Below, one piece after another: positions 8,200 to 63,787 of a stretch of 64,000 bases of DNA. The notes beneath the pieces were generated by a model that was not told the origin of the DNA, ran no database searches, and saw only the letters and a program-made list of their open reading frames with translations. Where the stretch lies: NCBI RefSeq assembly GCF_964355755.1, contig NC_092672.1, positions 13,822,501 through 13,886,500 on the forward strand, given 5' to 3'. Made by a program: the position numbers and the translations under genes. The DNA is from Antedon mediterranea (Eukaryota > Echinodermata > Crinoidea > Comatulida > Antedonidae). Position 1 is the first letter of the stretch. Every line of letters begins with the position of its first letter.

Positions 8200-8242
<43 letters not shown>

Positions 8243-12454: not shown

Positions 12455-13480
12455 GAGAATGAAACCAGCATGATTCATTTAATGAAATGCTGTACTTAGA
12501 GGAGGGTGATAAGACACCACCGCCGTATGGGGTGATAGTAGGGGGACCAGCATGAGTCATATAACCAGCATGAGTCATATAATGAATGCTGTACTTAAGA
12601 GCATGAGTGATAAAACACCGCCGTATGTGGGGGTAGTTAATGAACCAGCATAAGTAATTATGTGGTGGTAGTAGGGAAACCAGCATGAGTCATATAATGA
12701 ATGCTGTACTTAAGAGCATGAGTGATAAAAACACCGCCGTATGTGGGGGTGGGTAATGAACCAGCATAAGAAATTATGTGGTGGTAGTAGGGTTAATGAA
12801 CCAGCATAAGTAATTATGTGGTGGTAATAGGGGAACCAGCATGAGTCATAATATAATGAATGAACCAGCATAAGAAATTATGTGGTGGTAGTAGTCATTG
12901 GTGAACCAGCATAAGAAATTATGTGGTGGTAGTAGGGTTAATGAACCAGCATAAGTAATTATGTGGTGGTAGTAGGGAAACCAGCATGAGTCATATAATG
13001 AATGCTGTACTTAAGAGCATGAGTGATAAAAACACCGCCGTATGTGGGGGTGGGTAATGAACCAGCATAAGAAATTATGTGGTGGTAGTAGGGTTAATGA
13101 ACCAGCATAAGAAATTATGTGGTGGTAGTAGGGAAACCAGCATGAGTCATAATATAATGAATGAACCAGCATAAGAAATTATGTGGTGGTAGTAGTCATA
13201 TAATGGTGAACCAGCATAAGAAATTATGTGGTGGTAGTAGGGTTAATGAACCAGCATAAGTAATTATGTGGTGGTAGTAGGGAAACCAGCATGAGTCATA
13301 TAATGAATGCTGTACTTAAGAGCATGAGTGATAAAAACACCGCCGTATGTGGGGGTGGGTAATGAACCAGCATAAGAAATTATGTGGTGGTAGTAGGGTT
13401 AATGAACCAGCATAAGAAATTATGTGGTGGTAGTAGGGAAACCAGCATGAGTCATATAATGAATGCTGTACTTAAGGGCA
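12455..13480. repeat. Higher-order tandem repeat spanning the palindrome edge
   Basis: About 40-bp units built on GAACCAGCATAAGAAATTAT plus GTGGTGGTAGTAGGG alternate with a longer CATGAGTCATATAATGAATG-type unit. The composite repeats at about 12,677, 12,978 and 13,284, a higher-order period of about 300 bp. Only 13,228-13,480 has a mirror in the right arm (63,532-63,784), so the palindrome's outer left edge falls inside this array. Confidence 0.9.
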
Positions 13481-13940
13481 AAATCAAATGTACATCTGAC
13501 CAATTACTCAACTCCCTGACGCACAGCTACTCCACAGTAGTTCAATATAATAGTTTTCCCATCCTGTGAAATGGCGTAGCCCAGTTTGATCTTTTAACCC
13601 TGTACTGTGTTTTGAATGGGCATCGGACGAACAGGAGATTCTTCTGTTATAATTTCTTTGATAATAACACAACAGCGGCAAGTACAATAAAGCTTCAGAC
13701 TGCTTTAATTGTTACTAAGAAACAAAAGCGCACACAGGTGTACGCCCGCGTCGTAGTACTGTTACGTTTGTTCCGTCACCACCCAAGATATTATAGCCGT
13801 TTAGATGTAGACTTTTGATTAATTGCGGTTACAGTTTGAATTTACTTATACTATCATCAACTGTATAAACACATTTTCCGAAAAATAACATTTAAAAATA
13901 AAAGAGACTGTGTTTAGGATTACTAAAAAGATAAACAAAA
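13481..13940. other. No gene seen (left arm); mirror 63,072-63,531
   Basis: Unique-looking sequence between the tandem repeat and the 5S relic. The open frames on + here lack family motifs. Confidence 0.5.
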
Positions 13941-14028
13941 GTCTACAACACTGGGTAGGCGGGAACAAGACCCGATCTTGCGGTGTTCGGACGAGAACCA
14001 GTGTATTCAACGTGGTATGGTTGTAGAC
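13941..14028 (-). pseudogene. Truncated 5S rRNA-like sequence (left arm)
   Basis: Mirror of 62,984-63,071, where it is described. It reads on minus here. Confidence 0.75.
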
Positions 14029-14673
14029 ATTATGTTACTTCAAGATTATATATTAAAATCCGTTTAAAGGAGAGCTACCTGCATGATCTTAAAGAAAGGT
14101 TATTTAGATAGAAAAAGGAGCTAAGTCTAATTTCAGTAGAGAATAGGCGTGACTTCTTAAACAAGACATTCATTGCCAATATAATAATTTCTCCACGATC
14201 TAATTTTATGAGTGATTATGTTTTTTTTTATTAATAACATACACCTAGATATACTTACCTTTCATTATGGTAGAGCCCGTACTGATGCTTTCAAATACTC
14301 AGGGATAGCACTGTTTCCTAAAATGTTTTCAGAAGTTGGTGTTACGATCAGAAAAAATCAACGTTCACCGATAGCAAAATATCGAATTTAATAACTTCTT
14401 TTTGTCAAAAGTTTTCAGCGATAACTTTACTAATGGTATATTCTGACGTCATGGATATACTTATGCAAAATTGTGTTGTTCATGTTTGTTTGCAGGTGTT
14501 ACATATTCATAATGATGTTTTTTATAATGATGATGATGCTGATGATAATAATGATGTTATTGATAGTAATGATGATGATATGATGCTGTTGATAATAATG
14601 CTTTTTTTTTATTTTTAAAAATGTTTCTTACAGGATCTACTCAACATTCAATGACTACACGGCTAACTGCTAC
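14029..14673. other. No gene seen; contains a (GAT)n tract
   Basis: A GAT/AAT-rich microsatellite occupies about 14,513-14,590. Mirror 62,339-62,983, with the repeat at about 62,422-62,499. Confidence 0.6.
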
Positions 14674-15717
14674 GGGTGTCACGAAACCTAAGACCACGAA
14701 AGCTAAGACCCCCTAAGACCTAAGATCACGAAAGCTAAGACCCAAGACCTAAGATTACAAATTCTAAGATATACTACAGCTTAAAAACAATACTTGTTTA
14801 TCCATCCATAATTTTAAACACAGTAGGTTTCATTTATTACCATAAATATAATTTAATACTACCGCAAAACACAGATAAACTCACATTATTTTCGCCCGTT
14901 GAGTAAATGTATATTTTTTCTTTACAACAAACAAACTTGACGGGTTGTTTGTTGGTATATATTTACTCCAATGTGTTGGTTCAGAGGATGTTTTTCTTAC
15001 GCACCTGCCTTTCTTGTATTTTGACTCCAAATTTGTTTACTAACTTTATCCTGAATACCACACTTTAAAATTAGGACTTATAAGTACTTTCAGAAGGAGA
15101 AACACATAATAACAAATAAATAAATCCTTTAAATTGATGATTTTACAGACGTGTTTCTTTGTATACTGTAATGTAACTCCTCGAGCTCCCCATGCTCAAT
15201 GTTTTTGTTTCTATGGAGCGCCAAAAAAGCAACAATAATAGTACAAGTATAAAAACAGAAAGAAAATGAAACAAAAAAACTTATCATGATTTTTAAGTTA
15301 AAATTTATTTGCCAGTATTTATTTCTTCGTACTTGCATGATTATACTATTATCATTACAATTTTGATTTTACATTGTTCCATCCACACTGTAGATGGACT
15401 CCACAGAGTTTTCAGCCCTCTATATAATTTTTGCTCTTTTGACGTTCAATAGAAACAAAAACATTGAACATGGGGTAGGCCTACCAGTGTACTGTAGGCT
15501 AGTCATTTTGTGTGCGAGAAAAACGTCTGTAAAATCATCAATTTAAAAATGTATTTGTTACTTTTTATGTGATTCTTTTTCATGAAAGTGCCAATTCTAA
15601 GGTGTGGTATTCAGAATAAATGTTGGGAGTTAAAATACAAGGCAGGTGCGAAAGATAAATATTTGTAATCTTAGGTCTTGGGTCTTAGCTTTCGTGATCT
15701 TAGGTTTCGTGACACCC
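14674..15717. mobile_element. Fold-back element with 10-bp target duplication (left arm)
   Basis: It begins GGGTGTCACGAAACCTAAGA and ends with the inverted copy. Both sides are flanked by TAACTGCTAC (14664-14673 and 15718-15727). Inner inverted repeats continue: TTGATGATTTTACAGACG pairs with its complement near 15,520-15,545, and the GCACCTGCC...CCACAC blocks also pair. The whole 1,044-bp unit can therefore fold on itself. It has no coding capacity. A 9-10 bp duplication fits Mutator-like elements best; assignment is inference. Confidence 0.8.
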
Positions 15718-15727
15718 TAACTGCTAC

Positions 15728-16864
15728 ATTCTATTCCTTCGAAGTGATGCAGGACTGTGCCTTTTAAGTGAGATATTTCCCTTAAATCCTAAGACTATTT
15801 TACTAAAGTGGTTTTCACAAAGGTTTTAAGATTATAAGTGAAATCCTTAACTTGGTCTATTTTTCCCTTAACTCAGAGGTCCCTTAGAAGTTTCCTTAGC
15901 TATTCAGTACCTTGTAGATAACTCCAATCTAGGCTAGATAGAGATGCTAGGCCCCCCTGTTGGTCTGCCCAGTAACAAGCCGGGGATTCATATATAAGTA
16001 TTTTCCTTAACCTAAGTGTGATTGGTGAATACGGCCACAGGGCCCTACGAGTAAAAGCCACTTGCTGTTAAGCTAAACTGACACCACTTCTAGTCTGGGA
16101 GCTAAAACACGTTTTATTTTCAGTACAAACATTATACGTCTGTGTAGATTCAACAAAATCGACATTTACTTTAATTTTGGCCATTCATAGCTAAAATGTA
16201 TACAAAATCGTAAAATATGCATATTTTGATTTTTATCGATTTCAATATTATCAAAATACTACAATTTAGCGATAACAAACATTTCCTCTTATAATTATTT
16301 TTATTTGCATAAACTTGCCGTATAATTTGTTTTGTTTTATATTTTGATTTTAGTAACGCTGAGATATTAATAAACAAAACCTTGTTTTATATAAATGTAT
16401 ACATCGACATTAACTAGTTTAATACAATGTATAATGAAACATAAATATATCAACTTACTTTAACGATAAACTATAATATTGATTGAATAATTGTTTCTTT
16501 TTTCTGTTTATTAGTTTGGATGATATGTTTTTATTTGTAGTTGAAAAGGGCAATTCTTTTTTGTTTTCATTTATGATAATGAGATAAAAGCTAGCTGAGT
16601 GTTAAAAACTATTTTTATAAATGAATGTATTAATCCATGCATTTGTTGGCAGAGCTAGCTGCACTTCGATTATCATACACAAAACACTTTGGTGTAATTA
16701 CCAGTAGTAGCGGCCCATTTCCACTCAGCTCTAAAGCTTAGTATTATTAGCTCCTTACCACCTTATACTCGGTAATAATATATTAGATTCAACAAAAAAG
16801 TTATAAAGTGATGGGCTATATACAGCAGATAACAGCGTGTATTATTCGAGCGACATGGTAGCTG
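15728..16864. other. No gene seen; mirror 60,148-61,284
   Basis: AT-rich sequence. The open frame at 16171-16377 (minus) is lysine/isoleucine-rich and has no recognisable domain. Confidence 0.5.
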
Positions 16865-17253
16865 CCTATTGACTATTTTCACATAAGTCATAATATTTAT
16901 GACATTAATTTAGCAGTCATTAGGTCATAACATTTATGACAATTTAAAGGTACATGTTAAGTCTCGGAATACGCTAGTTATAGTGTATAGTACAGGAAGC
17001 ACTAATTTCGGGGCTTCCTGGTACAGTATTGACTATTTTCACATAAGTCATAATATTTATGACATTAATTTAGCAGTCATTAGGTCATAAAATTTATGAC
17101 AATTTAAAACTACATGTTATGTCTCGGAATACGCTGGTTATAGTACATGAGGCTGTGATTTCCGGGCTTCAAGGTATTGACTATTTTCACATAAGTCATA
17201 ATATTTATGACATGATTGTGAAGCTGCCATTAGGTCATAAAATTTATGACTTC
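16865..17253. repeat. Tandem repeat of 146-159 bp with internal dyads (left arm)
   Basis: TTGACTATTTTCACATAAGT followed by CATAATATTTATGAC starts at about 16,870, 17,029 and 17,175. Each unit holds CATAA-n-TTATG dyads and ends in a GTCTCGGAATACGCT... segment. The third unit is partial. Confidence 0.85.
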
Positions 17254-17619
17254 AGAAATACAAGAATTTCTCTGTAAAAATAATTAGTAGACAAAGTTTT
17301 AGTGTGCTATACAAGCTTTTTATTAATGACAAAACATGAATACACTCATAAGGTGTTTTTTCTCAGCCGTACATCAAAGAATTAAAGAACTGATAAATTT
17401 TAACTATTTATTCACTAACACTGGTTATTAATTTAGAATGAATTAAACTCGGCTTCTAGTAAAATAAGTATTGTATGCATTACTAACTATTTATACGTGA
17501 TTGTAGTAGAAAATATTTAAAAGATATATACATTTCACAGGCACAGAATAATTCTAAACCGCCCAGTGAAATTTAATTATTTAATTTTAAACGATAAAGA
17601 TGAGGAAATCAGTGAGAAT

Positions 17620-17686
17620 GCCCAATCCAAGATCCGAACCCGGAACATTCTGCTTGATATGCAGATGACCATTAGACCACTGTCGT
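17620..17686 (-). repeat. tRNA-headed SINE-like unit (left arm)
   Basis: Mirror of 59,326-59,392, where it is described. Confidence 0.5.
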
Positions 17687-17833
17687 AGTACGGCGGAACA
17701 GTACTAGTCTCTCAATTGTATATACAGTATATATATAAACATCACAAGGCACAGAATAAATTTAATAAATTAATTTGAAAAGTTATATAAAATGTGACTG
17801 CAAGGCATGTGTCCAGTATCATGAATGCTATTT

Positions 17834-20800
17834 TCACCCCGGAAATGTGTAGTCGTCCTCCTCATTTGCCATCTCCGCATTATCTTCAACCTCCTCATCT
17901 GTACTGTCGTCCTCATCTGAAATGATGAATAAACCAAGGCCCTATTATTTAATAGACCTCTAAATAGTTGTATAATTTTTTTAGAAGCTCTGTGTAAACA
18001 AAATTTTAAAATAGAGAATCTTTTTTTTTAAATTTGTATTACTATATGTTTCAAATTGGGTCAGAAATTGATTATAGGTATTTTGAATATTGATTAAAAA
18101 TTAAATGCATGGGCTGTGTTTATACAAGTTTACAATACAGATAGCATAGTATGCCGTCCAAGTTATGAGAATACAGCTTAATATGCCGTTTTAAAATTCC
18201 TGAACAAAAAGTAGCAGTATATTGCACTACAAACATCAAATCATCAGCATTGTATTGCGACTTGAATGTATACAATATCGCTTGTATATTGTTCTTCGTA
18301 TTAGCATCCATGACAATAGATAAACAATAAAGTTAATTTAACTTAAACTTACCATCCGATTGGGCTCCATTTTCAAGCTGAATGCTGTTTTCAATTTCTT
18401 CTTTGAAACGAACTAATCTGGATCTTAATTCAGATTCCCCATCATTCTCGAGCAAGGTTATACAATTGCGCCGTTGCAAAATTATTTCCTTGAGCACTGT
18501 AATTATAATAACAATAAAATAGATTTCAATTGAATATTAAATTATTTTGTTAGTTCATTAATGTCGTTTGTACAAACGACAATAGTAATGACTCAAAGAA
18601 CAAGAATTTTTCCCATTTGATTGAATTTTAGCGACATGCCCAATTGTCACGCGGTATGTTTTTGGTTAACATCAATGAATGATTATTATGAGTTATGGTA
18701 TAAATGTATTATTTACCATTCCATCCTAGGCAATTTACAACTAAGTGACCTTCTCTGCTATGCCTTGTCACTAGTTGCTTAATTAGCAGTTCTAGTGACT
18801 TAGCCTTAATGACGCCACCAATTCCATTCATCATGCGTTCGTGTTGAGGGCTTACTAATAACGTGCGAATGGTGTCTAAAAAAAATATGAATCATCATTA
18901 AACTGTAGGCCTACATACTTACATTAACTTTCCTGTATATTTGAATATAATAATAATAATATCAATGGTACATTTCTTTTTTTTTTTCTTTTATTAGAAA
19001 CAAGAAGAAATAACCCCATTACCTCACCATCCACCTCATACCAAAAAGCAGTTAGTATTGCAAATTGGTGAACATTTTTTAGTAGACTGCCAATCAATGA
19101 ATGACCTATATTTATAATTGAATAAAAATGACTGAACTATATTTGTAAATACAATAACAAACTGGGTATACCTTGTTCTTCGCAGTACCAATACTGTACT
19201 TGCATGACTCTATCATTGTCTTTTAAAATAGTCATATTGTATAGCAGGTCCTCGTCATTGCAAACAACTACGATGACATCAGAAATCAGCATTTCTTTTT
19301 CACATTTCTACAAAAAAAAAGCATAGAAAAAATAATATAATAAGAATAACAACAGTAACAAAACCAGTAACAAAACCAGTGCAGTCTCAATGTTACTGTG
19401 TTATGCAAAAATTGCATGTGTCAGGCTTCGGGGGGTCAGTTAGAATGGGTAGAATTATAAAATAATATATATAATCTCTAAAAACAGTTTGAATATTTGT
19501 TCTGTTGTTTATATAAATCTATTAAAATCTTTCTTAGTAAAGCCACATTGATAGGCCGTAAAAAAACAATTTAGTTTCAAATTTGAAAACCCCTCACTAT
19601 AGAATGAATTACAAATATACAAAACAATATAAAATATTTAAAATATATCAAACCTCTGTCAGTACGAGCAGGCCACGATGTAACCCCATATTACTGGAAT
19701 TGGCAATATCTGTCAATTTTCTGCCAATAAACGGCCCAGACATAACTTGACACTTTGATCTTGTTCCATCTTCTGTTAAAATATCAACTGTTGACGCTTG
19801 AGGCTGACTTTGCCTTTGTTCCTCCCAAAACAGAGCATCTTGACAATGCATGAATAAACCTGGTGGAATTTCGCTTTTAGATAACTTCCCTTTCAAAAGA
19901 AATGTATTAAAATGTTTTTATTATTATTTATTCAATATTTTAATTTCTATAAGGGATAGTAGTTTTGTGTGAATAAAGTACCTTTGCATCGAACTGCATA
20001 ATATTAAATTGTTTCAATTTTGTACGAATTTTTAAAATCTGACAGAGTGGGACTTGGTTTTAGAAATATAGCACAAATACAGCGACTGAATTCTATTAGT
20101 AACATAGTAACCTTACTTGTTGTTAAAAAAGGCCGAAGAGCAGAATCGGTCGTGTGCTCCGGAAATCTTTCGGTCGCTTCCTTCCATGTCAGTACTTTAA
20201 TAGTTGTCAAAAATTTTCCTCTGATCACCTTTATCTGCTTAATCGACCGTGCTTTATTTTCAACCTCTTTAATGGACATTGTTCCGTCTGTTACAGATGA
20301 CAGCAATTCAAACTTGTCTTCTTCCGACAGGCCTTGTAGTGTCATGAAGAACTATAGAATTGTAAAAAAATGTTTAGTCACAATACTGATAACAAATAAT
20401 AAAGCGTTCCAATAAGGGTTCAAGAGGTTCAGTATAAACATTTCTCTCGTGTGGATAACAATTGAAGAATTTACAAAACAATTGTTAATGCACGTCATAT
20501 CATTTTTGAATAGGCCATTTTTTAGTTTTAACAAAGTTAATCACACTCCCCCCCCCCCCCCCCTTTAGAAAAAACAGGCCTATTTTAAAATGTTTTTTTT
20601 TGTAATAAATTAGGCCTAATTTTAATAAATTTTTATAGTTTGTTATGTTTAGATTTAACCTGTTAGTGGCGGTTTCATCGCTGTTGGTTGACAACTGTAT
20701 AAAATAAATAAATTAATAAATAATAGATTGTTTTTTACAAAGTTATTAACCCTTTGAATGAAGACGCGTTGTTTCTACCGCAAGTGACTGAGACTAATAA

Positions 20801-23800
20801 TTAACTGATTGTGTTTCTTGCTTGTTTGTTTTTGCCAAAAAAAAAGCATACACCAGTAATTGCTATTTATTGAGAGAATAAATGTGACAGAAAATAAATG
20901 TAAGAAACCTACCGACTGCTTCAATTGCTTTCCGGGTTTGGAATCCTTTACCGTTCCTGCATTATACTGGGCAAACAGCTTGGTAACCTTTGTGTAGCAT
21001 CGGTCCGTATACAATGATACTTGGAACATCGGTTCCATGGACGATATTATCTGCAATACAACGTTATTATTTATTATTACTATCCTTATTTATTATTATC
21101 GTTATTATCTTTTTATTATTGTTAATATCCTTATTTATTATATATTATTATTAATTACAACATTATTATTAATTATATCACCATTACATTATTAATTACA
21201 ACTTTATATATTAGAGTCCTAAATAACTTGTTTAAATAATATTAATAATACCTTTTTTTCGAACGATTGTTTGCCAATTGCCTCTGCACACTTTCTCCTC
21301 CATGTCGAAGTCGTTTTGGCATCTTTGTCATTGTAATCTTGCAAAATGTTACGGCATACTGCAACGTTGTCTTCAAAAGTTGCTTGGTGAGTATTACCTG
21401 TGACGAAATTATGTCGAGATGCCACAAGTAGTGATTCAGTTTTTGTTAGATCAAAATAGACTGCCACTTCTAATTGTTTAAATATATTCTCACTCATTGT
21501 TGATAGTGCTGTTCTTAAATGATTTCCGCCAAGTGAATAAAAAATACACTTCTCGTATTCTTGTTTGTTAAAGAAATCGTAATGTTCTTTATTAAGCAAT
21601 ACAGGTAGTATCGTGTTCACCAGACCGTCCTTTGTAAGCGTTTCTTGAATTTTTTTAACAAAATCTTGGTCGATCTTGCGAAGTAGTAAGTCCGATGGCG
21701 GCGCTACTATCGAACTTCTTGGCACAGCAACTAGACCTATAAACGTAAAATGACAGTTTGTTAAATATTACATCTTATGATTATACAACAAGGAAGTATT
21801 CTCCCCAGGATTTAGATCAAGCATCGTAGTAATCTTATGTCCTGGCTAATCTGGGTGTCGGTGACTAATATTGTCAGCCTACTACTACAATTTAGTGAAA
21901 TCATTTACCTGTATTTCACAATTCTAATATGAAACAACTTAATATAAATATGTCATTGTATTATTATTATGATAGGATTTTCATATTTAAAAACCAATTT
22001 TATTTTTTACTAAAATGGGGAATTCCACAGTAATTGCAAGTTGCGACATCAGTAAAAAACATTTTAAAAAATTGTTTTACATACAAAGTTGGACATTTTC
22101 AGAAAAAGGATACATTATTAAATTATATGAATTACAAAAAATGATTGACATTATATTTTAATATTAGTTTTATTTTTTAAATAACAATATATATCCTAAA
22201 AATTTAACGTTGCCATACAGTATAGGCCGTTTAGTCTAGGCCTAGGTAGTGTCAGGACATCATCACCCCCTGCCTGCTTGAGTGCATGGAGATCACCCTG
22301 CACATGTTATTTTTTTATATTTTAGTTAATTTTGAATTTATATAGGTATTTTGCACAATATCTAGGAAGGTTAGGCCTAGTGTATGTTAGCATCCGGGCT
22401 AGGTCTGGGTTTGCAAGGCTAGTAGTAGTCATGTGAAAGAAAATTGTCCAATCGAATGACCGGAATCTATTTATGCGTTTTATAATAACTGTTTGAAACT
22501 TAAATAACAATAAAACAAATAGAAAATAGAGTAACTATAAGAAGTTAAAACCTGTGTTCAAAATATCTTTAGTTCGTTCATCTTCGAAAAATGTGTTCAT
22601 CCGCTTTATATTTTAATAGGCCTAGTACGTATAATTACTTATCTAGCCAGATTATACTAATTTAACGTAACGAATTGTAGATACATTAAATCTAATCATG
22701 GTTAGGCCTATAGTTATTGTGAGTTATGTTTAAAATTACAGTTTTTGTTATCCAAGATCAAAGTGAATAACTATTATGTGACATATTCAACAAAACATTT
22801 GAAAAAATATAAAACAGTAACGTTTGTTTAATTGTAAACTACAGTAAAACAAAAGCAGATAATAATTATGCTTGTCCATGGGGCATGGTACAGTATGTAA
22901 CTTCAATAACAAATGTTTCATATACTAACCAATGATCTTTTCTTTGATTGTTTCGTCGATTGTCTTTATGTTAATTCTTGTTCTCTTTGTAGTTACGTTT
23001 TCAGCATCTTGAGCTTTTCGCTTTCGTAATGTTTGCAATGTTTTGGTAAGGTCGTCAATTGTCTTGCATTTGCAAAATGGGCAATTTTCGTCCGGTTTGA
23101 ATTTGCTCCACAATACTTTGGTTGCAGCAAGCGTACTACTACAGTCGCTTTCTTCTGTAACAATCTATAGTATTGCAAAATTGTTTTTAATTAAATAAAT
23201 AACTAAACATAGAAATTTATATAGTTGTTAAGTCTACACACTACACCCTAATATTCAGTGTTGGTGCTCTTGATGAAAATGCATTTTTTAAATCATATAT
23301 AAAACTTTAATGTTAAAAAAATGGTCAACAAAATTAGTATCAATGGTCCTATAGTAAAGATATATTACAATTTAGTTTTAGGCCTGAAACAACATTTCAA
23401 TTAATTAGATGAAATAAATAATCGAATAAATCATAATATATATTATAATCAGAAAGCCTATAAAATCCAAATATAATAGGCCTATTAAACAGCTGAAGAT
23501 TGTGCCCCTGGGAAAATACTAATAAAACTAATAATTGCGTGGCTTGAAACACTTTTTAAAACTGCAAAATGGAAAATAAAACATCTTTATAAAGTAATAA
23601 GACTGGTGAAGAATGGTTCCCTAAAAACATTAAAAGAAAATTATATTATTTAGAAGAACACAACAATCTTACCTTAAGCCAGTTTTTGCCTTTAGTTGTT
23701 TTGGTAAATTTTATAACCTTGCCTAACTGTTCACCATCAGAATGCTTTATTGCCCTAGTGTTATTAATTATTAGATAAGCAATGTTGTCTTCCTCTACAC

Positions 23801-23816
23801 AAAACCTCCAGTCCAT
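17834..23816 (-). CDS. ParB/sulfiredoxin-like domain protein, 11 exons (left-arm copy)
   Basis: Inverted copy of the gene at 53,199-59,178, where the protein is described. Exons on minus, first to last: 23673-23816, 22930-23164, 21252-21736, 20913-21050, 20117-20351, 19982-19993 (micro-exon), 19654-19889, 19172-19307, 18717-18875, 18353-18496 and 17834-17916. All splice borders are conserved and the frame is open. One coding difference from the right-arm copy was seen: position 20963 makes residue 318 Asn here and Tyr there. Confidence 0.82.
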
Positions 23817-23904
23817 TTTTATCAAATGCGATAACGAAGTGATCACAAACAATGTTGGGCGACGAGTGACGCACTTTCACACTGTTACGATCTTTTATTT
23901 GGGC

Positions 23905-23929
23905 CAGGGAGTTATTAGTCAACTCCCTG
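23905..23929. promoter_or_regulatory. 9-bp dyad upstream of the ParB-like gene
   Basis: CAGGGAGTT-ATTAGTC-AACTCCCTG lies about 90 bases before the ATG (mirror 53,086-53,110). A nearby AAATAAAAG could act as a weak TATA element. Any regulatory role is inference. Confidence 0.3.
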
Positions 23930-25076
23930 TTTGGGCATTGTTCACATTGTTTATACTAAAGCTACAGATCAGCAGGAAGAAAAACTCAAGTGCAAATCGT
24001 ATTTCATATCGATAACGAGTATTATTTGCACGATAGAGATCGATAAAATCTGCCAGTAATATATAATCATTTTCATAGATTAACTTATATATTTTAATCT
24101 ACTTATACTGTAGTAAAATAATTTTTACCATTTCAAACTAATTCATATTGGGCTCCCGTAATTTCACCTATGCTACACTGCATAATATATATATATATAT
24201 ATATCAACTATGTAAATACTTTATTTGCACATAACATAATAACATGATATAAAAAACATATGACCAAAAAATAAATAAATCATATATTCAAAAGTTTAGC
24301 GCCTCTAAAGGAAACATCAAATTGAAGTAAGAAATCCTGATATTTTAACTAAATTAAAATTCTTGAATTAAATTCCTTTTTTATAAGCAGTTGTATATTG
24401 TTTTGTATAATTGTAAATTTATATTATATTTATAAAATAAGAAATTTCGGTTGCAAATATGCTTTTTTTTAAATACAGTATTACAGGGATCTTTTATTAT
24501 TTGAAGTTTAGGTTGTTGGTGGGGTAGCCAATGAACATAAAATTATTGTATTTTGACTATTTCCATTTTGATTGGTCAATTTTGTCGTTAAAAACACGTC
24601 CGTATAAATTGTGCGTCTCTTTTGAATAACCTACTGTGTAATATTGAAGCTGTTTATAATTGTTTACCATGAATCATTAAAATATAAACATACGCCTATT
24701 TAAAATGAACTTAGAATAGTTATTAAATACATAAAAACAAGCTAGTGATCAATACTTTATTTTCTTGTAAAAAAATATGAATATATCGCGTATTATAAGA
24801 TAAAAGCGTTGATAGTATTCCAGATATCAACTTGAAAAATATAGCACAAAAAAAAAACAATTTTAAGCATTCATTGATCTAAACCAAAATTGTCCACTTT
24901 TTATGTACAAAAAAACAAAGTCATATCGGATAGACCATCATCAAATGTTCACGTATCTCTGAAATATTGTGTCGAACGAAAAGATTATTTCAATTTCAAA
25001 GTTGGCCTGTCAAACTAGGCGTTAGAAAAATAAATTAAACTAATATATAAAATTATATTGGACAAATCTATATTAT
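23930..25076. other. 5' flank of the ParB-like gene, no other gene seen
   Basis: AT-rich sequence with an (AT)n run near 24,187-24,204. Mirror 51,939-53,085. Confidence 0.5.
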
Positions 25077-31611: not shown

Positions 31612-31650
31612 AGTAGTAAATAAGGTACTTCAGACCCGACCTTGATGTAT

Positions 31651-45090: not shown

Positions 45091-45391
45091 AGAAACACCT
45101 GGCGGAAATTACATAATTATTACGAAACCAGGAAAAGAACGACCTTCATTAGAAACACCTGGCGGAAATTACATAACTAGTACGAAACCAGGAAAAGAAC
45201 GACCTTCATTAGAAACACCTGGCGGAAATTACATAACTATTACAATAACAGGAAAAAAACGACCTTCATTAGAAACACCTGGCGGAAATTACATAACTAT
45301 ACGTAATCAGGAAAAGAACGACCTTCATTAGAAACACCTGGCGGAAACGACCTTCATTAGAAACACCTGGCGGATATTACGTAATCAGGAA
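45091..45391. repeat. 60-bp minisatellite (right arm)
   Basis: Inverted copy of 31,651-31,951 with the same number of units. Confidence 0.92.
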
Positions 45392-45430
45392 ATACATCAA
45401 GGTCGGGTCTGAAGTACCTTATTTACTACT

Positions 45431-48400: not shown

Positions 48401-48581
48401 ATTGGGCTGTTTTAACTTTTTTATAAGGAAAAATTTTACTCCGTCAGAAAACTTATTGAATATTTGACACGAAGATCCGCCGCCTTGGGGAAGCGTTTTA
48501 TCGTAGTAATACTGGCCTAACCACGTGAAACCTGTGAGGTGATATTGAGTGGGATGTAAATGTATTAGTCTGTATGGGTTA
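45431..48581 (-). mobile_element. Truncated DIRS-type element carrying a nested transposon (right arm)
   Basis: Inverted copy of 28,434-31,611. It is 27 bp shorter because of the indel inside the nested transposon, and a base difference was noted at 48,101. Confidence 0.85.
46317..47424. mobile_element. TTAA-flanked TIR transposon nested in DIRS (right arm)
   Basis: Inverted copy of 29,591-30,725 but 1,108 bp long. It lacks the 27 bases found at about 30,413-30,439. Confidence 0.88.
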
Positions 48582-51938: not shown

Positions 51939-53198
51939 ATAATATAGATTTGTCCAATATAATTTTATATATTAGTTTAATTTATTTTTCTAACGCCTAG
52001 TTTGACAGGCCAACTTTGAAATTGAAATAATCTTTTCGTTCGACACAATATTTCAGAGATACGTGAACATTTGATGATGGTCTATCCGATATGACTTTGT
52101 TTTTTTGTACATAAAAAGTGGACAATTTTGGTTTAGATCAATGAATGCTTAAAATTGTTTTTTTTTTGTGCTATATTTTTCAAGTTGATATCTGGAATAC
52201 TATCAACGCTTTTATCTTATAATACGCGATATATTCATATTTTTTTACAAGAAAATAAAGTATTGATCACTAGCTTGTTTTTATGTATTTAATAACTATT
52301 CTAAGTTCATTTTAAATAGGCGTATGTTTATATTTTAATGATTCATGGTAAACAATTATAAACAGCTTCAATATTACACAGTAGGTTATTCAAAAGAGAC
52401 GCACAATTTATACGGACGTGTTTTTAACGACAAAATTGACCAATCAAAATGGAAATAGTCAAAATACAATAATTTTATGTTCATTGGCTACCCCACCAAC
52501 AACCTAAACTTCAAATAATAAAAGATCCCTGTAATACTGTATTTAAAAAAAAGCATATTTGCAACCGAAATTTCTTATTTTATAAATATAATATAAATTT
52601 ACAATTATACAAAACAATATACAACTGCTTATAAAAAAGGAATTTAATTCAAGAATTTTAATTTAGTTAAAATATCAGGATTTCTTACTTCAATTTGATG
52701 TTTCCTTTAGAGGCGCTAAACTTTTGAATATATGATTTATTTATTTTTTGGTCATATGTTTTTTATATCATGTTATTATGTTATGTGCAAATAAAGTATT
52801 TACATAGTTGATATATATATATATATATATTATGCAGTGTAGCATAGGTGAAATTACGGGAGCCCAATATGAATTAGTTTGAAATGGTAAAAATTATTTT
52901 ACTACAGTATAAGTAGATTAAAATATATAAGTTAATCTATGAAAATGATTATATATTACTGGCAGATTTTATCGATCTCTATCGTGCAAATAATACTCGT
53001 TATCGATATGAAATACGATTTGCACTTGAGTTTTTCTTCCTGCTGATCTGTAGCTTTAGTATAAACAATGTGAACAATGCCCAAACAGGGAGTTGACTAA
53101 TAACTCCCTGGCCCAAATAAAAGATCGTAACAGTGTGAAAGTGCGTCACTCGTCGCCCAACATTGTTTGTGATCACTTCGTTATCGCATTTGATAAAA

Positions 53199-56100
53199 AT
53201 GGACTGGAGGTTTTGTGTAGAGGAAGACAACATTGCTTATCTAATAATTAATAACACTAGGGCAATAAAGCATTCTGATGGTGAACAGTTAGGCAAGGTT
53301 ATAAAATTTACCAAAACAACTAAAGGCAAAAACTGGCTTAAGGTAAGATTGTTGTGTTCTTCTAAATAATATAATTTTCTTTTAATGTTTTTAGGGAACC
53401 ATTCTTCACCAGTCTTATTACTTTATAAAGATGTTTTATTTTCCATTTTGCAGTTTTAAAAAGTGTTTCAAGCCACGCAATTATTAGTTTTATTAGTATT
53501 TTCCCAGGGGCACAATCTTCAGCTGTTTAATAGGCCTATTATATTTGGATTTTATAGGCTTTCTGATTATAATATATATTATGATTTATTCGATTATTTA
53601 TTTCATCTAATTAATTGAAATGTTGTTTCAGGCCTAAAACTAAATTGTAATATATCTTTACTATAGGACCATTGATACTAATTTTGTTGACCATTTTTTT
53701 AACATTAAAGTTTTATATATGATTTAAAAAATGCATTTTCATCAAGAGCACCAACACTGAATATTAGGGTGTAGTGTGTAGACTTAACAACTATATAAAT
53801 TTCTATGTTTAGTTATTTATTTAATTAAAAACAATTTTGCAATACTATAGATTGTTACAGAAGAAAGCGACTGTAGTAGTACGCTTGCTGCAACCAAAGT
53901 ATTGTGGAGCAAATTCAAACCGGACGAAAATTGCCCATTTTGCAAATGCAAGACAATTGACGACCTTACCAAAACATTGCAAACATTACGAAAGCGAAAA
54001 GCTCAAGATGCTGAAAACGTAACTACAAAGAGAACAAGAATTAACATAAAGACAATCGACGAAACAATCAAAGAAAAGATCATTGGTTAGTATATGAAAC
54101 ATTTGTTATTGAAGTTACATACTGTACCATGCCCCATGGACAAGCATAATTATTATCTGCTTTTGTTTTACTGTAGTTTACAATTAAACAAACGTTACTG
54201 TTTTATATTTTTTCAAATGTTTTGTTGAATATGTCACATAATAGTTATTCACTTTGATCTTGGATAACAAAAACTGTAATTTTAAACATAACTCACAATA
54301 ACTATAGGCCTAACCATGATTAGATTTAATGTATCTACAATTCGTTACGTTAAATTAGTATAATCTGGCTAGATAAGTAATTATACGTACTAGGCCTATT
54401 AAAATATAAAGCGGATGAACACATTTTTCGAAGATGAACGAACTAAAGATATTTTGAACACAGGTTTTAACTTCTTATAGTTACTCTATTTTCTATTTGT
54501 TTTATTGTTATTTAAGTTTCAAACAGTTATTATAAAACGCATAAATAGATTCCGGTCATTCGATTGGACAATTTTCTTTCACATGACTACTACTAGCCTT
54601 GCAAACCCAGACCTAGCCCGGATGCTAACATACACTAGGCCTAACCTTCCTAGATATTGTGCAAAATACCTATATAAATTCAAAATTAACTAAAATATAA
54701 AAAAATAACATGTGCAGGGTGATCTCCATGCACTCAAGCAGGCAGGGGGTGATGATGTCCTGACACTACCTAGGCCTAGACTAAACGGCCTATACTGTAT
54801 GGCAACGTTAAATTTTTAGGATATATATTGTTATTTAAAAAATAAAACTAATATTAAAATATAATGTCAATCATTTTTTGTAATTCATATAATTTAATAA
54901 TGTATCCTTTTTCTGAAAATGTCCAACTTTGTATGTAAAACAATTTTTTAAAATGTTTTTTACTGATGTCGCAACTTGCAATTACTGTGGAATTCCCCAT
55001 TTTAGTAAAAAATAAAATTGGTTTTTAAATATGAAAATCCTATCATAATAATAATACAATGACATATTTATATTAAGTTGTTTCATATTAGAATTGTGAA
55101 ATACAGGTAAATGATTTCACTAAATTGTAGTAGTAGGCTGACAATATTAGTCACCGACACCCAGATTAGCCAGGACATAAGATTACTACGATGCTTGATC
55201 TAAATCCTGGGGAGAATACTTCCTTGTTGTATAATCATAAGATGTAATATTTAACAAACTGTCATTTTACGTTTATAGGTCTAGTTGCTGTGCCAAGAAG
55301 TTCGATAGTAGCGCCGCCATCGGACTTACTACTTCGCAAGATCGACCAAGATTTTGTTAAAAAAATTCAAGAAACGCTTACAAAGGACGGTCTGGTGAAC
55401 ACGATACTACCTGTATTGCTTAATAAAGAACATTACGATTTCTTTAACAAACAAGAATACGAGAAGTGTATTTTTTATTCACTTGGCGGAAATCATTTAA
55501 GAACAGCACTATCAACAATGAGTGAGAATATATTTAAACAATTAGAAGTGGCAGTCTATTTTGATCTAACAAAAACTGAATCACTACTTGTGGCATCTCG
55601 ACATAATTTCGTCACAGGTAATACTCACCAAGCAACTTTTGAAGACAACGTTGCAGTATGCCGTAACATTTTGCAAGATTACAATGACAAAGATGCCAAA
55701 ACGACTTCGACATGGAGGAGAAAGTGTGCAGAGGCAATTGGCAAACAATCGTTCGAAAAAAAGGTATTATTAATATTATTTAAACAAGTTATTTAGGACT
55801 CTAATATATAAAGTTGTAATTAATAATGTAATGGTGATATAATTAATAATAATGTTGTAATTAATAATAATATATAATAAATAAGGATATTAACAATAAT
55901 AAAAAGATAATAACGATAATAATAAATAAGGATAGTAATAATAAATAATAACGTTGTATTGCAGATAATATCGTCCATGGAACCGATGTTCCAAGTATCA
56001 TTGTATACGGACCGATGCTACACAAAGGTTACCAAGCTGTTTGCCCAGTATTATGCAGGAACGGTAAAGGATTCCAAACCCGGAAAGCAATTGAAGCAGT

Positions 56101-59100
56101 CGGTAGGTTTCTTACATTTATTTTCTGTCACATTTATTCTCTCAATAAATAGCAATTACTGGTGTATGCTTTTTTTTTGGCAAAAACAAACAAGCAAGAA
56201 ACACAATCAGTTAATTATTAGTCTCAGTCACTTGCGGTAGAAACAACGCGTCTTCATTCAAAGGGTTAATAACTTTGTAAAAAACAATCTATTATTTATT
56301 AATTAATTAATTTTATACAGTTGTCAACCAACAGCGATGAAACCGCCACTAACAGGTTAAATCTAAACATAACAAACTATAAAAATTTATTAAAATTAGG
56401 CCTAATTTATTACAAAAAAAAACATTTTAAAATAGGCCTGTTTTTTCTAAAGGGGGGGGGGGGGAGTGTGATTAACTTTGTTAAAACTAAAAAATGGCCT
56501 ATTCAAAAATGATATGACGTGCATTAACAATTGTTTTGTAAATTCTTCAATTGTTATCCACACGAGAGAAATGTTTATACTGAACCTCTTGAACCCTTAT
56601 TGGAACGCTTTATTATTTGTTATCAGTATTGTGACTAAACATTTTTTTACAATTCTATAGTTCTTCATGACACTACAAGGCCTGTCGGAAGAAGACAAGT
56701 TTGAATTGCTGTCATCTGTAACAGACGGAACAATGTCCATTAAAGAGGTTGAAAATAAAGCACGGTCGATTAAGCAGATAAAGGTGATCAGAGGAAAATT
56801 TTTGACAACTATTAAAGTACTGACATGGAAGGAAGCGACCGAAAGATTTCCGGAGCACACGACCGATTCTGCTCTTCGGCCTTTTTTAACAACAAGTAAG
56901 GTTACTATGTTACTAATAGAATTCAGTCGCTGTATTTGTGCTATATTTCTAAAACCAAGTCCCACTCTGTCAGATTTTAAAAATTCGTACAAAATTGAAA
57001 CAATTTAATATTATGCAGTTCGATGCAAAGGTACTTTATTCACACAAAACTACTATCCCTTATAGAAATTAAAATATTGAATAAATAATAATAAAAACAT
57101 TTTAATACATTTCTTTTGAAAGGGAAGTTATCTAAAAGCGAAATTCCACCAGGTTTATTCATGCATTGTCAAGATGCTCTGTTTTGGGAGGAACAAAGGC
57201 AAAGTCAGCCTCAAGCGTCAACAGTTGATATTTTAACAGAAGATGGAACAAGATCAAAGTGTCAAGTTATGTCTGGGCCGTTTATTGGCAGAAAATTGAC
57301 AGATATTGCCAATTCCAGTAATATGGGGTTACATCGTGGCCTGCTCGTACTGACAGAGGTTTGATATATTTTAAATATTTTATATTGTTTTGTATATTTG
57401 TAATTCATTCTATAGTGAGGGGTTTTCAAATTTGAAACTAAATTGTTTTTTTACGGCCTATCAATGTGGCTTTACTAAGAAAGATTTTAATAGATTTATA
57501 TAAACAACAGAACAAATATTCAAACTGTTTTTAGAGATTATATATATTATTTTATAATTCTACCCATTCTAACTGACCCCCCGAAGCCTGACACATGCAA
57601 TTTTTGCATAACACAGTAACATTGAGACTGCACTGGTTTTGTTACTGGTTTTGTTACTGTTGTTATTCTTATTATATTATTTTTTCTATGCTTTTTTTTT
57701 GTAGAAATGTGAAAAAGAAATGCTGATTTCTGATGTCATCGTAGTTGTTTGCAATGACGAGGACCTGCTATACAATATGACTATTTTAAAAGACAATGAT
57801 AGAGTCATGCAAGTACAGTATTGGTACTGCGAAGAACAAGGTATACCCAGTTTGTTATTGTATTTACAAATATAGTTCAGTCATTTTTATTCAATTATAA
57901 ATATAGGTCATTCATTGATTGGCAGTCTACTAAAAAATGTTCACCAATTTGCAATACTAACTGCTTTTTGGTATGAGGTGGATGGTGAGGTAATGGGGTT
58001 ATTTCTTCTTGTTTCTAATAAAAGAAAAAAAAAAAGAAATGTACCATTGATATTATTATTATTATATTCAAATATACAGGAAAGTTAATGTAAGTATGTA
58101 GGCCTACAGTTTAATGATGATTCATATTTTTTTTAGACACCATTCGCACGTTATTAGTAAGCCCTCAACACGAACGCATGATGAATGGAATTGGTGGCGT
58201 CATTAAGGCTAAGTCACTAGAACTGCTAATTAAGCAACTAGTGACAAGGCATAGCAGAGAAGGTCACTTAGTTGTAAATTGCCTAGGATGGAATGGTAAA
58301 TAATACATTTATACCATAACTCATAATAATCATTCATTGATGTTAACCAAAAACATACCGCGTGACAATTGGGCATGTCGCTAAAATTCAATCAAATGGG
58401 AAAAATTCTTGTTCTTTGAGTCATTACTATTGTCGTTTGTACAAACGACATTAATGAACTAACAAAATAATTTAATATTCAATTGAAATCTATTTTATTG
58501 TTATTATAATTACAGTGCTCAAGGAAATAATTTTGCAACGGCGCAATTGTATAACCTTGCTCGAGAATGATGGGGAATCTGAATTAAGATCCAGATTAGT
58601 TCGTTTCAAAGAAGAAATTGAAAACAGCATTCAGCTTGAAAATGGAGCCCAATCGGATGGTAAGTTTAAGTTAAATTAACTTTATTGTTTATCTATTGTC
58701 ATGGATGCTAATACGAAGAACAATATACAAGCGATATTGTATACATTCAAGTCGCAATACAATGCTGATGATTTGATGTTTGTAGTGCAATATACTGCTA
58801 CTTTTTGTTCAGGAATTTTAAAACGGCATATTAAGCTGTATTCTCATAACTTGGACGGCATACTATGCTATCTGTATTGTAAACTTGTATAAACACAGCC
58901 CATGCATTTAATTTTTAATCAATATTCAAAATACCTATAATCAATTTCTGACCCAATTTGAAACATATAGTAATACAAATTTAAAAAAAAAGATTCTCTA
59001 TTTTAAAATTTTGTTTACACAGAGCTTCTAAAAAAATTATACAACTATTTAGAGGTCTATTAAATAATAGGGCCTTGGTTTATTCATCATTTCAGATGAG

Positions 59101-59178
59101 GACGACAGTACAGATGAGGAGGTTGAAGATAATGCGGAGATGGCAAATGAGGAGGACGACTACACATTTCCGGGGTGA
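53199..59178 (+). CDS. ParB/sulfiredoxin-like domain protein, 11 exons (right-arm copy)
   Basis: I know no named orthologue. Exons: 53199-53342, 53851-54085, 55279-55763, 55965-56102, 56661-56895, 57019-57030, 57123-57358, 57705-57840, 58137-58295, 58516-58659 and 59096-59178. All have AG/GT borders and all phases agree, giving 668 residues. Residues 76-81 are CPFCKC, a compact zinc-like cluster. Residues 95-111 are basic (RKRK...KRTR), a likely nuclear signal. Exon 3 (127-288) holds GGNHLRTAL at 196-204, then ASRHN at 232-236. This spacing resembles the ParB/sulfiredoxin fold, where a G-x-HR-x-xA loop binds nucleotide and an A-x-x-x-N helix follows. The last 27 residues are strongly acidic. 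The start is the first ATG of the open frame. Nuclear nucleic-acid or nucleotide binding is inference from these features. Both palindrome copies are intact, which suggests the gene is live. Confidence 0.82.
57019..57030 (+). other. Possible 12-nt micro-exon of the ParB-like gene
   Basis: TTCGATGCAAAG lies between TTATGCAG and GTACTT. It keeps the frame and adds four residues. Exons 5 and 7 also join in frame without it (664 residues), so it may be skipped, alternative, or not an exon. Confidence 0.4.
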
Positions 59179-59325
59179 AAATAGCATTCATGATACTGGA
59201 CACATGCCTTGCAGTCACATTTTATATAACTTTTCAAATTAATTTATTAAATTTATTCTGTGCCTTGTGATGTTTATATATATACTGTATATACAATTGA
59301 GAGACTAGTACTGTTCCGCCGTACT

Positions 59326-59392
59326 ACGACAGTGGTCTAATGGTCATCTGCATATCAAGCAGAATGTTCCGGGTTCGGATCTTGGATTGGGC
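59326..59392 (+). repeat. tRNA-headed SINE-like unit (right arm)
   Basis: Shows an A box (TGGTCTAATGG), an anticodon arm TCTGC-ATATCAA-GCAGA and a B box-like GGTTCGGATCT within a CCGGG/CTTGG arm. The presumed acceptor strands do not pair, so this is a tRNA-derived SINE or pseudogene, not a working tRNA. Imperfect direct repeats (TTATTCTGTGCCT...) at about 59,256 and 59,461 flank it and may be the target duplication. Confidence 0.5.
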
Positions 59393-59758
59393 ATTCTCAC
59401 TGATTTCCTCATCTTTATCGTTTAAAATTAAATAATTAAATTTCACTGGGCGGTTTAGAATTATTCTGTGCCTGTGAAATGTATATATCTTTTAAATATT
59501 TTCTACTACAATCACGTATAAATAGTTAGTAATGCATACAATACTTATTTTACTAGAAGCCGAGTTTAATTCATTCTAAATTAATAACCAGTGTTAGTGA
59601 ATAAATAGTTAAAATTTATCAGTTCTTTAATTCTTTGATGTACGGCTGAGAAAAAACACCTTATGAGTGTATTCATGTTTTGTCATTAATAAAAAGCTTG
59701 TATAGCACACTAAAACTTTGTCTACTAATTATTTTTACAGAGAAATTCTTGTATTTCT

Positions 59759-60147
59759 GAAGTCATAAATTTTATGACCTAATGGCAGCTTCACAATCAT
59801 GTCATAAATATTATGACTTATGTGAAAATAGTCAATACCTTGAAGCCCGGAAATCACAGCCTCATGTACTATAACCAGCGTATTCCGAGACATAACATGT
59901 AGTTTTAAATTGTCATAAATTTTATGACCTAATGACTGCTAAATTAATGTCATAAATATTATGACTTATGTGAAAATAGTCAATACTGTACCAGGAAGCC
60001 CCGAAATTAGTGCTTCCTGTACTATACACTATAACTAGCGTATTCCGAGACTTAACATGTACCTTTAAATTGTCATAAATGTTATGACCTAATGACTGCT
60101 AAATTAATGTCATAAATATTATGACTTATGTGAAAATAGTCAATAGG
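59759..60147. repeat. Tandem repeat of 146-159 bp with internal dyads (right arm)
   Basis: Inverted copy of 16,865-17,253. It begins about 580 bp downstream of the ParB-like gene's stop codon. Confidence 0.85.
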
Positions 60148-61294
60148 CAGCTACCATGTCGCTCGAATAATACACGCTGTTATCTGCTGTATATAGCCCA
60201 TCACTTTATAACTTTTTTGTTGAATCTAATATATTATTACCGAGTATAAGGTGGTAAGGAGCTAATAATACTAAGCTTTAGAGCTGAGTGGAAATGGGCC
60301 GCTACTACTGGTAATTACACCAAAGTGTTTTGTGTATGATAATCGAAGTGCAGCTAGCTCTGCCAACAAATGCATGGATTAATACATTCATTTATAAAAA
60401 TAGTTTTTAACACTCAGCTAGCTTTTATCTCATTATCATAAATGAAAACAAAAAAGAATTGCCCTTTTCAACTACAAATAAAAACATATCATCCAAACTA
60501 ATAAACAGAAAAAAGAAACAATTATTCAATCAATATTATAGTTTATCGTTAAAGTAAGTTGATATATTTATGTTTCATTATACATTGTATTAAACTAGTT
60601 AATGTCGATGTATACATTTATATAAAACAAGGTTTTGTTTATTAATATCTCAGCGTTACTAAAATCAAAATATAAAACAAAACAAATTATACGGCAAGTT
60701 TATGCAAATAAAAATAATTATAAGAGGAAATGTTTGTTATCGCTAAATTGTAGTATTTTGATAATATTGAAATCGATAAAAATCAAAATATGCATATTTT
60801 ACGATTTTGTATACATTTTAGCTATGAATGGCCAAAATTAAAGTAAATGTCGATTTTGTTGAATCTACACAGACGTATAATGTTTGTACTGAAAATAAAA
60901 CGTGTTTTAGCTCCCAGACTAGAAGTGGTGTCAGTTTAGCTTAACAGCAAGTGGCTTTTACTCGTAGGGCCCTGTGGCCGTATTCACCAATCACACTTAG
61001 GTTAAGGAAAATACTTATATATGAATCCCCGGCTTGTTACTGGGCAGACCAACAGGGGGGCCTAGCATCTCTATCTAGCCTAGATTGGAGTTATCTACAA
61101 GGTACTGAATAGCTAAGGAAACTTCTAAGGGACCTCTGAGTTAAGGGAAAAATAGACCAAGTTAAGGATTTCACTTATAATCTTAAAACCTTTGTGAAAA
61201 CCACTTTAGTAAAATAGTCTTAGGATTTAAGGGAAATATCTCACTTAAAAGGCACAGTCCTGCATCACTTCGAAGGAATAGAATGTAGCAGTTA

Positions 61295-62338
61295 GGGTGT
61301 CACGAAACCTAAGATCACGAAAGCTAAGACCCAAGACCTAAGATTACAAATATTTATCTTTCGCACCTGCCTTGTATTTTAACTCCCAACATTTATTCTG
61401 AATACCACACCTTAGAATTGGCACTTTCATGAAAAAGAATCACATAAAAAGTAACAAATACATTTTTAAATTGATGATTTTACAGACGTTTTTCTCGCAC
61501 ACAAAATGACTAGCCTACAGTACACTGGTAGGCCTACCCCATGTTCAATGTTTTTGTTTCTATTGAACGTCAAAAGAGCAAAAATTATATAGAGGGCTGA
61601 AAACTCTGTGGAGTCCATCTACAGTGTGGATGGAACAATGTAAAATCAAAATTGTAATGATAATAGTATAATCATGCAAGTACGAAGAAATAAATACTGG
61701 CAAATAAATTTTAACTTAAAAATCATGATAAGTTTTTTTGTTTCATTTTCTTTCTGTTTTTATACTTGTACTATTATTGTTGCTTTTTTGGCGCTCCATA
61801 GAAACAAAAACATTGAGCATGGGGAGCTCGAGGAGTTACATTACAGTATACAAAGAAACACGTCTGTAAAATCATCAATTTAAAGGATTTATTTATTTGT
61901 TATTATGTGTTTCTCCTTCTGAAAGTACTTATAAGTCCTAATTTTAAAGTGTGGTATTCAGGATAAAGTTAGTAAACAAATTTGGAGTCAAAATACAAGA
62001 AAGGCAGGTGCGTAAGAAAAACATCCTCTGAACCAACACATTGGAGTAAATATATACCAACAAACAACCCGTCAAGTTTGTTTGTTGTAAAGAAAAAATA
62101 TACATTTACTCAACGGGCGAAAATAATGTGAGTTTATCTGTGTTTTGCGGTAGTATTAAATTATATTTATGGTAATAAATGAAACCTACTGTGTTTAAAA
62201 TTATGGATGGATAAACAAGTATTGTTTTTAAGCTGTAGTATATCTTAGAATTTGTAATCTTAGGTCTTGGGTCTTAGCTTTCGTGATCTTAGGTCTTAGG
62301 GGGTCTTAGCTTTCGTGGTCTTAGGTTTCGTGACACCC
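61295..62338. mobile_element. Fold-back element with 10-bp target duplication (right arm)
   Basis: Inverted copy of 14,674-15,717 with the same target duplication. It was carried along by the palindrome and is not an independent insertion. Confidence 0.8.
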
Positions 62339-62983
62339 GTAGCAGTTAGCCGTGTAGTCATTGAATGTTGAGTAGATCCTGTAAGAAACATTTTTAAAAA
62401 TAAAAAAAAAGCATTATTATCAACAGCATCATATCATCATCATTACTATCAATAACATCATTATTATCATCAGCATCATCATCATTATAAAAAACATCAT
62501 TATGAATATGTAACACCTGCAAACAAACATGAACAACACAATTTTGCATAAGTATATCCATGACGTCAGAATATACCATTAGTAAAGTTATCGCTGAAAA
62601 CTTTTGACAAAAAGAAGTTATTAAATTCGATATTTTGCTATCGGTGAACGTTGATTTTTTCTGATCGTAACACCAACTTCTGAAAACATTTTAGGAAACA
62701 GTGCTATCCCTGAGTATTTGAAAGCATCAGTACGGGCTCTACCATAATGAAAGGTAAGTATATCTAGGTGTATGTTATTAATAAAAAAAAACATAATCAC
62801 TCATAAAATTAGATCGTGGAGAAATTATTATATTGGCAATGAATGTCTTGTTTAAGAAGTCACGCCTATTCTCTACTGAAATTAGACTTAGCTCCTTTTT
62901 CTATCTAAATAACCTTTCTTTAAGATCATGCAGGTAGCTCTCCTTTAAACGGATTTTAATATATAATCTTGAAGTAACATAAT

Positions 62984-63071
62984 GTCTACAACCATACCAC
63001 GTTGAATACACTGGTTCTCGTCCGAACACCGCAAGATCGGGTCTTGTTCCCGCCTACCCAGTGTTGTAGAC
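62984..63071 (+). pseudogene. Truncated 5S rRNA-like sequence (right arm)
   Basis: The first half matches animal 5S rRNA closely: GTCTACAACCATACCACG, then TTGAATACACTGGTTCTCG and TCCGA. About 30 bases of the middle are missing, where most of the internal promoter would be. The end is CCCAGTGTTGTAGAC followed by TTTT. The terminal helix GTCTACAAC/GTTGTAGAC is a perfect 9-bp pair. At 88 instead of about 120 nt it is a relic, possibly the head of a 5S-derived SINE. Confidence 0.75.
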
Positions 63072-63787
63072 TTTTGTTTATCTTTTTAGTAATCCTAAAC
63101 ACAGTCTCTTTTATTTTTAAATGTTATTTTTCGGAAAATGTGTTTATACAGTTGATGATAGTATAAGTAAATTCAAACTGTAACCGCAATTAATCAAAAG
63201 TCTACATCTAAACGGCTATAATATCTTGGGTGGTGACGGAACAAACGTAACAGTACTACGACGCGGGCGTACACCTGTGTGCGCTTTTGTTTCTTAGTAA
63301 CAATTAAAGCAGTCTGAAGCTTTATTGTACTTGCCGCTGTTGTGTTATTATCAAAGAAATTATAACAGAAGAATCTCCTGTTCGTCCGATGCCCATTCAA
63401 AACACAGTACAGGGTTAAAAGATCAAACTGGGCTACGCCATTTCACAGGATGGGAAAACTATTATATTGAACTACTGTGGAGTAGCTGTGCGTCAGGGAG
63501 TTGAGTAATTGGTCAGATGTACATTTGATTTTGCCCTTAAGTACAGCATTCATTATATGACTCATGCTGGTTTCCCTACTACCACCACATAATTTCTTAT
63601 GCTGGTTCATTAACCCTACTACCACCACATAATTTCTTATGCTGGTTCATTACCCACCCCCACATACGGCGGTGTTTTTATCACTCATGCTCTTAAGTAC
63701 AGCATTCATTATATGACTCATGCTGGTTTCCCTACTACCACCACATAATTACTTATGCTGGTTCATTAACCCTACTACCACCACTGA

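Follow-up and report, generated by a model that had tools for sequence, protein, structure and literature searches.

A near-perfect palindrome with a hairpin hinge and a partial third copy: a possible recent inverted duplication or an artefact

Introduction

The closest described counterparts of the locus considered here are inverted duplications formed in living cells, palindromes of mammalian sex chromosomes and strand-switch artefacts of sequencing. In yeast, the junctions of origin-dependent inverted-repeat amplification (ODIRA) form at existing interrupted repeats of 2–14 bp with a preferred spacing of 40–80 bp (PMC10766183), and these junctions rearrange further, secondary rearrangements having been reported (PMC4689423). 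Human fold-back duplications have spacers of 700–70,466 bp in 25 listed cases, and 18 of these 25 duplications exceed 1 Mb (PMC3907307). The arms of primate X palindromes are GC-richer than their flanks (PMC8981503). Finally, fold-back artefact reads made in vitro switch strand within 200 bp, near the read midpoint (PMC12870357). Here, we analyse a palindrome of 50.6 kb in a 64,000-nucleotide stretch of contig NC_092672.1 (the window, meaning this whole stretch at its full length), following up an earlier sequence-only reading of the same DNA.

We put first, tentatively, a genuine recent inverted duplication in a locus where one piece is present three or more times. Nearly as likely is a library or assembly artefact, produced either by in vitro fold-back at the hairpin in the centre of the palindrome, which would give a fold-back read or an amplification chimera, or by a head-to-head join of two haplotype contigs.

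Results

Two nearly identical arms

Comparison of the window with itself yielded a single inverted match, that of 13228–63784 with itself, which covers 50,595 alignment columns at 99.785% identity with the centre counted. Chance cannot give an inverted match of such length. The sequence-only reading had described a near-perfect palindrome of 50.6 kb at these positions, with paired positions adding to about 77,012–77,042 and with only a few differences in roughly 25 kb per arm, and on all three points we obtained the same picture. The sums are 77,012, then 77,015 and then 77,042/77,041, the steps being caused by indels between the arms (Table 1). Outside the centre the arms differ at ten places in ~25.2 kb, of which seven are substitutions, two are homopolymer indels and one is an indel of 27 bp. 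The limits given in that reading hold for the two arms, but the structure as a whole reaches past 63784, where a third, partial copy follows.

The arms are thus two distinct sequences, as the 27-bp indel and the substitutions show, and we count this for a real structure. If one molecule had been copied back on itself, its arms would not be expected to differ by seven substitutions and a clean indel of 27 bp, which argues against an artefact of the fold-back kind; these same differences are compatible with a join of two haplotypes. If the palindrome were an artefact, the ten differences would be allelic or would stem from the consensus, and two of the ten are indeed homopolymer lengths. A two-haplotype join would, on the other hand, need only ~0.03% heterozygosity over 25 kb, and such a value is low for outbred invertebrates. 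By one measure the differences also look clustered, with six of the nine gaps between neighbours shorter than 700 bp (P 0.003, with the threshold set post hoc), and the patches might be those of two haplotypes; by a second measure, the size of the largest gap, they show nothing out of the ordinary (P 0.25).

It is improbable that the palindrome is old and that gene conversion between its arms has preserved their likeness, as happens on mammalian sex chromosomes. Clustered differences, again with the post hoc threshold in mind, could equally be patches left unconverted, and arm identity by substitution, ~99.97% (7 in ~25.2 kb), resembles the 99.97% of human P6 (PMC3723533). Against this stand the spacer of 78 bp and a third copy that is joined mid-intron and is 100% identical over its visible 213 bp, which points to youth. 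Furthermore, GC content is 0.331 in the left arm and 0.352 in 1–13227, so that the arm is not GC-richer than its flank, opposite to primate X palindromes (PMC8981503), although this flank includes satellite and retroelement and makes the test a weak one. The sequence-only reading had invoked arm-to-arm conversion to keep the arms alike; it is not required, as a young duplication gives equal identity.

The substitutions have an unusual spectrum. Six of the seven (20706, 20710, 20963, 28914, 34822 and 35962) are A<->T, whereas among the differences that separate other repeats of the window such changes number 21 of 126 (Fisher 2.6e-4), the control being 10 pooled repeat comparisons within the window that include overlapping repeat units, so that the 126 differences are partly non-independent. 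With the neighbours 20706 and 20710 taken as one event the share is 5/6 (Fisher P 1.1e-3). This excess weighs, mildly, as much against a plain allelic history as against a plain mutation history. GC-biased conversion was considered as its source and rejected by argument: such bias picks the winning base and not the lifetime of a difference, and arm GC is not raised. Random resolution of ambiguity codes is a further conceivable source. At 28914 the direction of change can be read, since the retroelement copy outside the palindrome carries the base of the left arm, and the right arm is therefore the derived one at this site.

The hinge

The arms meet at a central spacer of 78 bp, an imperfect hairpin whose 7-bp arms, TCTGGTC and GACCAGA, enclose a loop that holds further stems, among them stems of 5 and 7 bp. 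Its predicted fold has an energy of -15.1 kcal/mol (z -3.60), and none of 200 shuffles was equally stable. The sequence ATGACYTCTGGTC occurs twice within the window, both times at the hinge. Among 498,264 stretches of 30–120 bp sampled from 1–38400, a range that takes in the left arm itself, 76 have an exact 7-bp repeat at their ends.

Directly flanking the 7-bp hinge repeat is a C/T mismatch, 38481/38560. By our own arithmetic, the probability that one of 8 substitutions over 25 kb lands within ~8 bp of the hinge by chance is ~0.0025. Because a chance mismatch so near the hinge is improbable, the imperfect hinge repeat may be older than the duplication event, as its sequence suggests. In the rearranged sequence, hinge repeat and copied arm look alike, and the prior existence of the repeat is what we infer.

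The hinge alone cannot separate in vivo template switching from in vitro fold-back. The spacer is tiny, as would suit an artefact, and the strand switch occurs within 200 bp, which is one of two criteria for fold-back in PMC12870357; the other, a switch near the read midpoint, is a property of reads, not of contigs.

Second junction and third copy

Beyond 63784 the contig does not enter the mirror image of 1–13227. There is instead an odd second join, followed by 213 bp that repeat 42706–42918 without a single difference. This third copy begins mid-intron and reaches an ALKBH2-like exon at the window edge. Among the matches listed, full-length matches of the 213-bp piece in the window lie only in the two arms, the others being short and mostly AT-rich. 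As assembled, the locus has been rearranged and contains the 42706–42918 piece at least three times.

Because of the second junction and the third partial copy, neither a simple palindrome nor a single head-to-head join is sufficient, and for the same reason the expected read depth differs from that of a two-arm case. Complex rearrangements show further junctions into the same locus. A second junction of this kind is counted here for a real structure, since an artefact must explain it by a separate cause: the 63784 join would have arisen as another chimera or through a graph error, or else it would be a true variant present in one haplotype. That an odd second join stands where the mirror of 1–13227 should follow can, however, also be read in favour of an artefact.

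A transposon end at the right boundary was considered as well and is unlikely, as the 213-bp copy starts mid-intron and enters an ALKBH2-like exon. At both outer ends of the arms lies satellite, and the palindrome limit falls inside the array on the left. A stretch of the satellite was compared with viral and prokaryote contigs and gave no exact match, which says little, as the collections consist of viruses and prokaryotes.

Table 1. Coordinates of the features of the palindrome and of its surroundings in the window
Feature	Position	Strand	Details
Left arm of inverted duplication	13228..38480	+	25,253 bp; from self-comparison and difference listing
Right arm, reverse complement of left arm	38561..63784	-	25,224 bp; from self-comparison and difference listing
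Central spacer, imperfect hairpin	38482..38559	.	78 bp; 7-bp inverted repeat 38482-38488 / 38553-38559, 64-base loop
Second junction	63785..63787	.	3 bp, TGA; alternatively a 2-bp expansion of TGAGAC seen at 42705
Third, partial copy	63788..64000	+	213 bp, 100% identical to 42706-42918; orientation of the right arm; runs off the window end
End of second ALKBH2-like exon in third copy	63964-64000		exon positions from the spliced chain
Substitutions between arms	20706, 20710, 20963, 28914, 34822, 35132, 35962		left-arm positions
27-bp indel	30413		present in left arm; clean, with 2 bp microhomology
Homopolymer indels	20561; 35334		3 C in a poly-C run; 1 A in a poly-A run
Satellite array, outer end of left arm	12546..13480	.	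units of ~40, 116, 156 and 301 bp; palindrome limit inside the array
Satellite, shorter copy, outer end of right arm	63532..63784	.	
Retroelement pieces in left arm	28425..31611	+	98.0-98.7% identical to outside pieces 9219-11288; ~1.1 kb interruption 29590-30728
PC4-type region	32836..33525	+	frame from 32836 hits TAA at 33199-33201; clear PC4 repeat in another frame
ALKBH2-like three-exon chain	33525-33812, 34018-34160, 34384-34675	+	mirror copy 42367-43517
Two ORFs of other putative gene	21222-21767, 20004-20351 (20004..21767)	-	open reading frames (ORFs) only; mirror copy in right arm

Origin of the palindrome

Under the recent duplication that we favour, a replication fork or a broken end, copying rightwards, would have met the imperfect interrupted inverted repeat at 38481–38560. 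The nascent strand would have switched to the opposite strand at the hinge and copied back to the satellite at 13228, which would account for the right arm. The third copy would have begun afterwards, when another break or template switch linked the satellite, in direct orientation, to the intron at 42705/34336; loss of a segment from a longer inverted array would be an equivalent route. The likeness of the arms would reflect youth, with the ten differences accumulated since. The window itself shows the two arms with the hairpin between them, the two junctions and the partial third copy, and we infer the in vivo switch, the order of events and the age. The sequence-only reading had named fold-back inverted duplication and breakage–fusion–bridge as possible routes: the former fits the hinge, whereas the window holds no positive evidence for the latter.

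A fuller version of this account is unlikely as a whole. In it, an animal germline would carry a palindrome with 25-kb arms and a spacer of less than 100 bp, which would belong to an array of at least three copies made when a fork switched template at a hairpin, would be passed on in spite of its expected instability and would have an A<->T signature of its own.

Several points weigh against a recent duplication in vivo. To begin with the hinge, 7-bp repeats of 40–80 bp span are not rare, as they start at 163 positions of the left arm (6.5 per kb), and part of the 7 bp of the hinge could be copied arm plus one later mutation. The A<->T excess, a mild argument, is not the pattern expected of ordinary mutation. 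A palindrome with so short a spacer should, moreover, be less stable than palindromes at large. The third copy shares the orientation of the right arm, whereas the third copy of canonical ODIRA opposes the middle one. Palindromes in general are a source of instability (PMC8053094). Furthermore, fold-back occurs in vitro as well, the figures cited being 1–4% of genomic reads and up to 20–30% in some cases (PMC12870357), and amplification yields multi-inversion reads (PMC13265396). In favour of an artefact, the authors who listed palindromes in published assemblies state that some of their entries are misassemblies (PMC7953838). In our judgement, the prior for an artefact is high for such palindromes in draft assemblies.

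If real, the locus would be a natural and, judging by the character of its genes and repeats, probably animal example of the junction type of yeast inverted amplification, with the hinge, the second junction and part of the third copy all readable, and it would put to the test how a palindrome can persist when its spacer is almost absent. Otherwise, it would mean that a hairpin and a satellite can mimic a multi-copy locus and its seemingly duplicated genes.

Genes and repeats in the arms

The sequence-only reading had placed two intact multi-exon genes in each arm. For one of them this stands in part: the spliced exons of the ALKBH2-like three-exon chain are open through to the stop, and its last exon matches PF13532 of Pfam at 1.4e-19 and ALKBH2 chains of PDB down to 1e-33. 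Directly before this open chain, in both arms alike, lies a PC4-type region, which is interrupted. Its second PC4 repeat is clear (PF02229, 1.4e-11), and Pfam gave no hit to PC4 in the stretch that follows the TAA. By our reading, a first PC4 repeat may span the TAA, its first half scoring 0.03, which is below the cut-off. The region is broken, or spliced differently, or misread in both arms. All five blocks of the PC4–ALKBH2 region that were compared are letter-identical between the arms.

The other putative gene consists of ORFs without a recognized family. Scanned against Pfam, its seven ORFs gave nothing above the curated cut-off (weak matches to DUF5886 at 0.048 and UPF0731 at 0.089); two of them had no NCBIfam match, and one compared with PDB had weak matches only, the best being ERCC-1 at 0.047. 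A motif in this gene is perhaps ParB-like, a likeness that was not confirmed. Judged by the positions of the differences, the seven ORFs are free of arm-to-arm differences.

Upstream of the PC4 region is a single-exon ORF of 184 amino acids (32122–32676), with no match in Pfam, where it was scanned within a longer ORF, or in NCBIfam. The 21222–21767 ORF, the last ALKBH2-like exon, the retroelement reverse transcriptase and the ORF 32122–32673 had no relatives in viral contigs, a collection that says little here. ARAGORN, run with bacterial settings, found no tRNA, and no Rfam family reached its gathering score.

The retroelement in the left arm, presumably DIRS-like, matches RVT_1 at 28426–28797 (2.8e-07), as does the outside copy at 10916–11488 (5.5e-11). 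It is interrupted by an insert of ~1.1 kb (29590–30728) that is not present in the outside copy and has inverted-repeat ends, AATGGACCTGAAATGG and CCATTTCAGGTCCATT, with TTAA on both sides. We take this insert to resemble a small TTAA-inserting DNA transposon. The 27-bp indel between the arms (30413) falls inside it. Elsewhere, a reverse-transcriptase remnant at 5918–6418 (RVT_1 0.01, below the cut-off) adjoins GACA repeats.

Comparison with known systems

The locus shares its hinge geometry with fold-back and amplification artefact reads (PMC12870357, PMC6218980, PMC13265396), and differs from them in that its arms are set apart by a 27-bp indel and seven substitutions. With the palindromes of the human Y and the primate X it has in common arms of tens of kb and at least 99.9% identity (PMC3723533, PMC8981503); unlike those, it has a tiny hairpin spacer, a third partial copy, no rise of GC in the arm and no sign of age. 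Palindromes reported for Adineta vaga and Folsomia candida likewise place inverted blocks of genes on a single scaffold of an assembled invertebrate genome (PMC7953838, PMC5490193), although the synonymous rate given for the Dscam2 block of F. candida is 0.2, and the five blocks that we compared show no difference. As in human fold-back inverted duplications, the spacer has short inverted sequences at its edges, but it measures 78 bp in place of 700–70,466 bp (PMC3907307). ODIRA yields an inverted triplication whose middle copy faces the other way from both neighbours; here, the third copy is oriented as the right arm, an orientation that rests on 213 visible bp and may reflect a later deletion. 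In its hinge, by contrast, the locus is like ODIRA as described at yeast SUL1: with a 64-base loop and 78 bp overall, the hinge lies within the preferred 40–80 bp (PMC4689423, PMC10766183).

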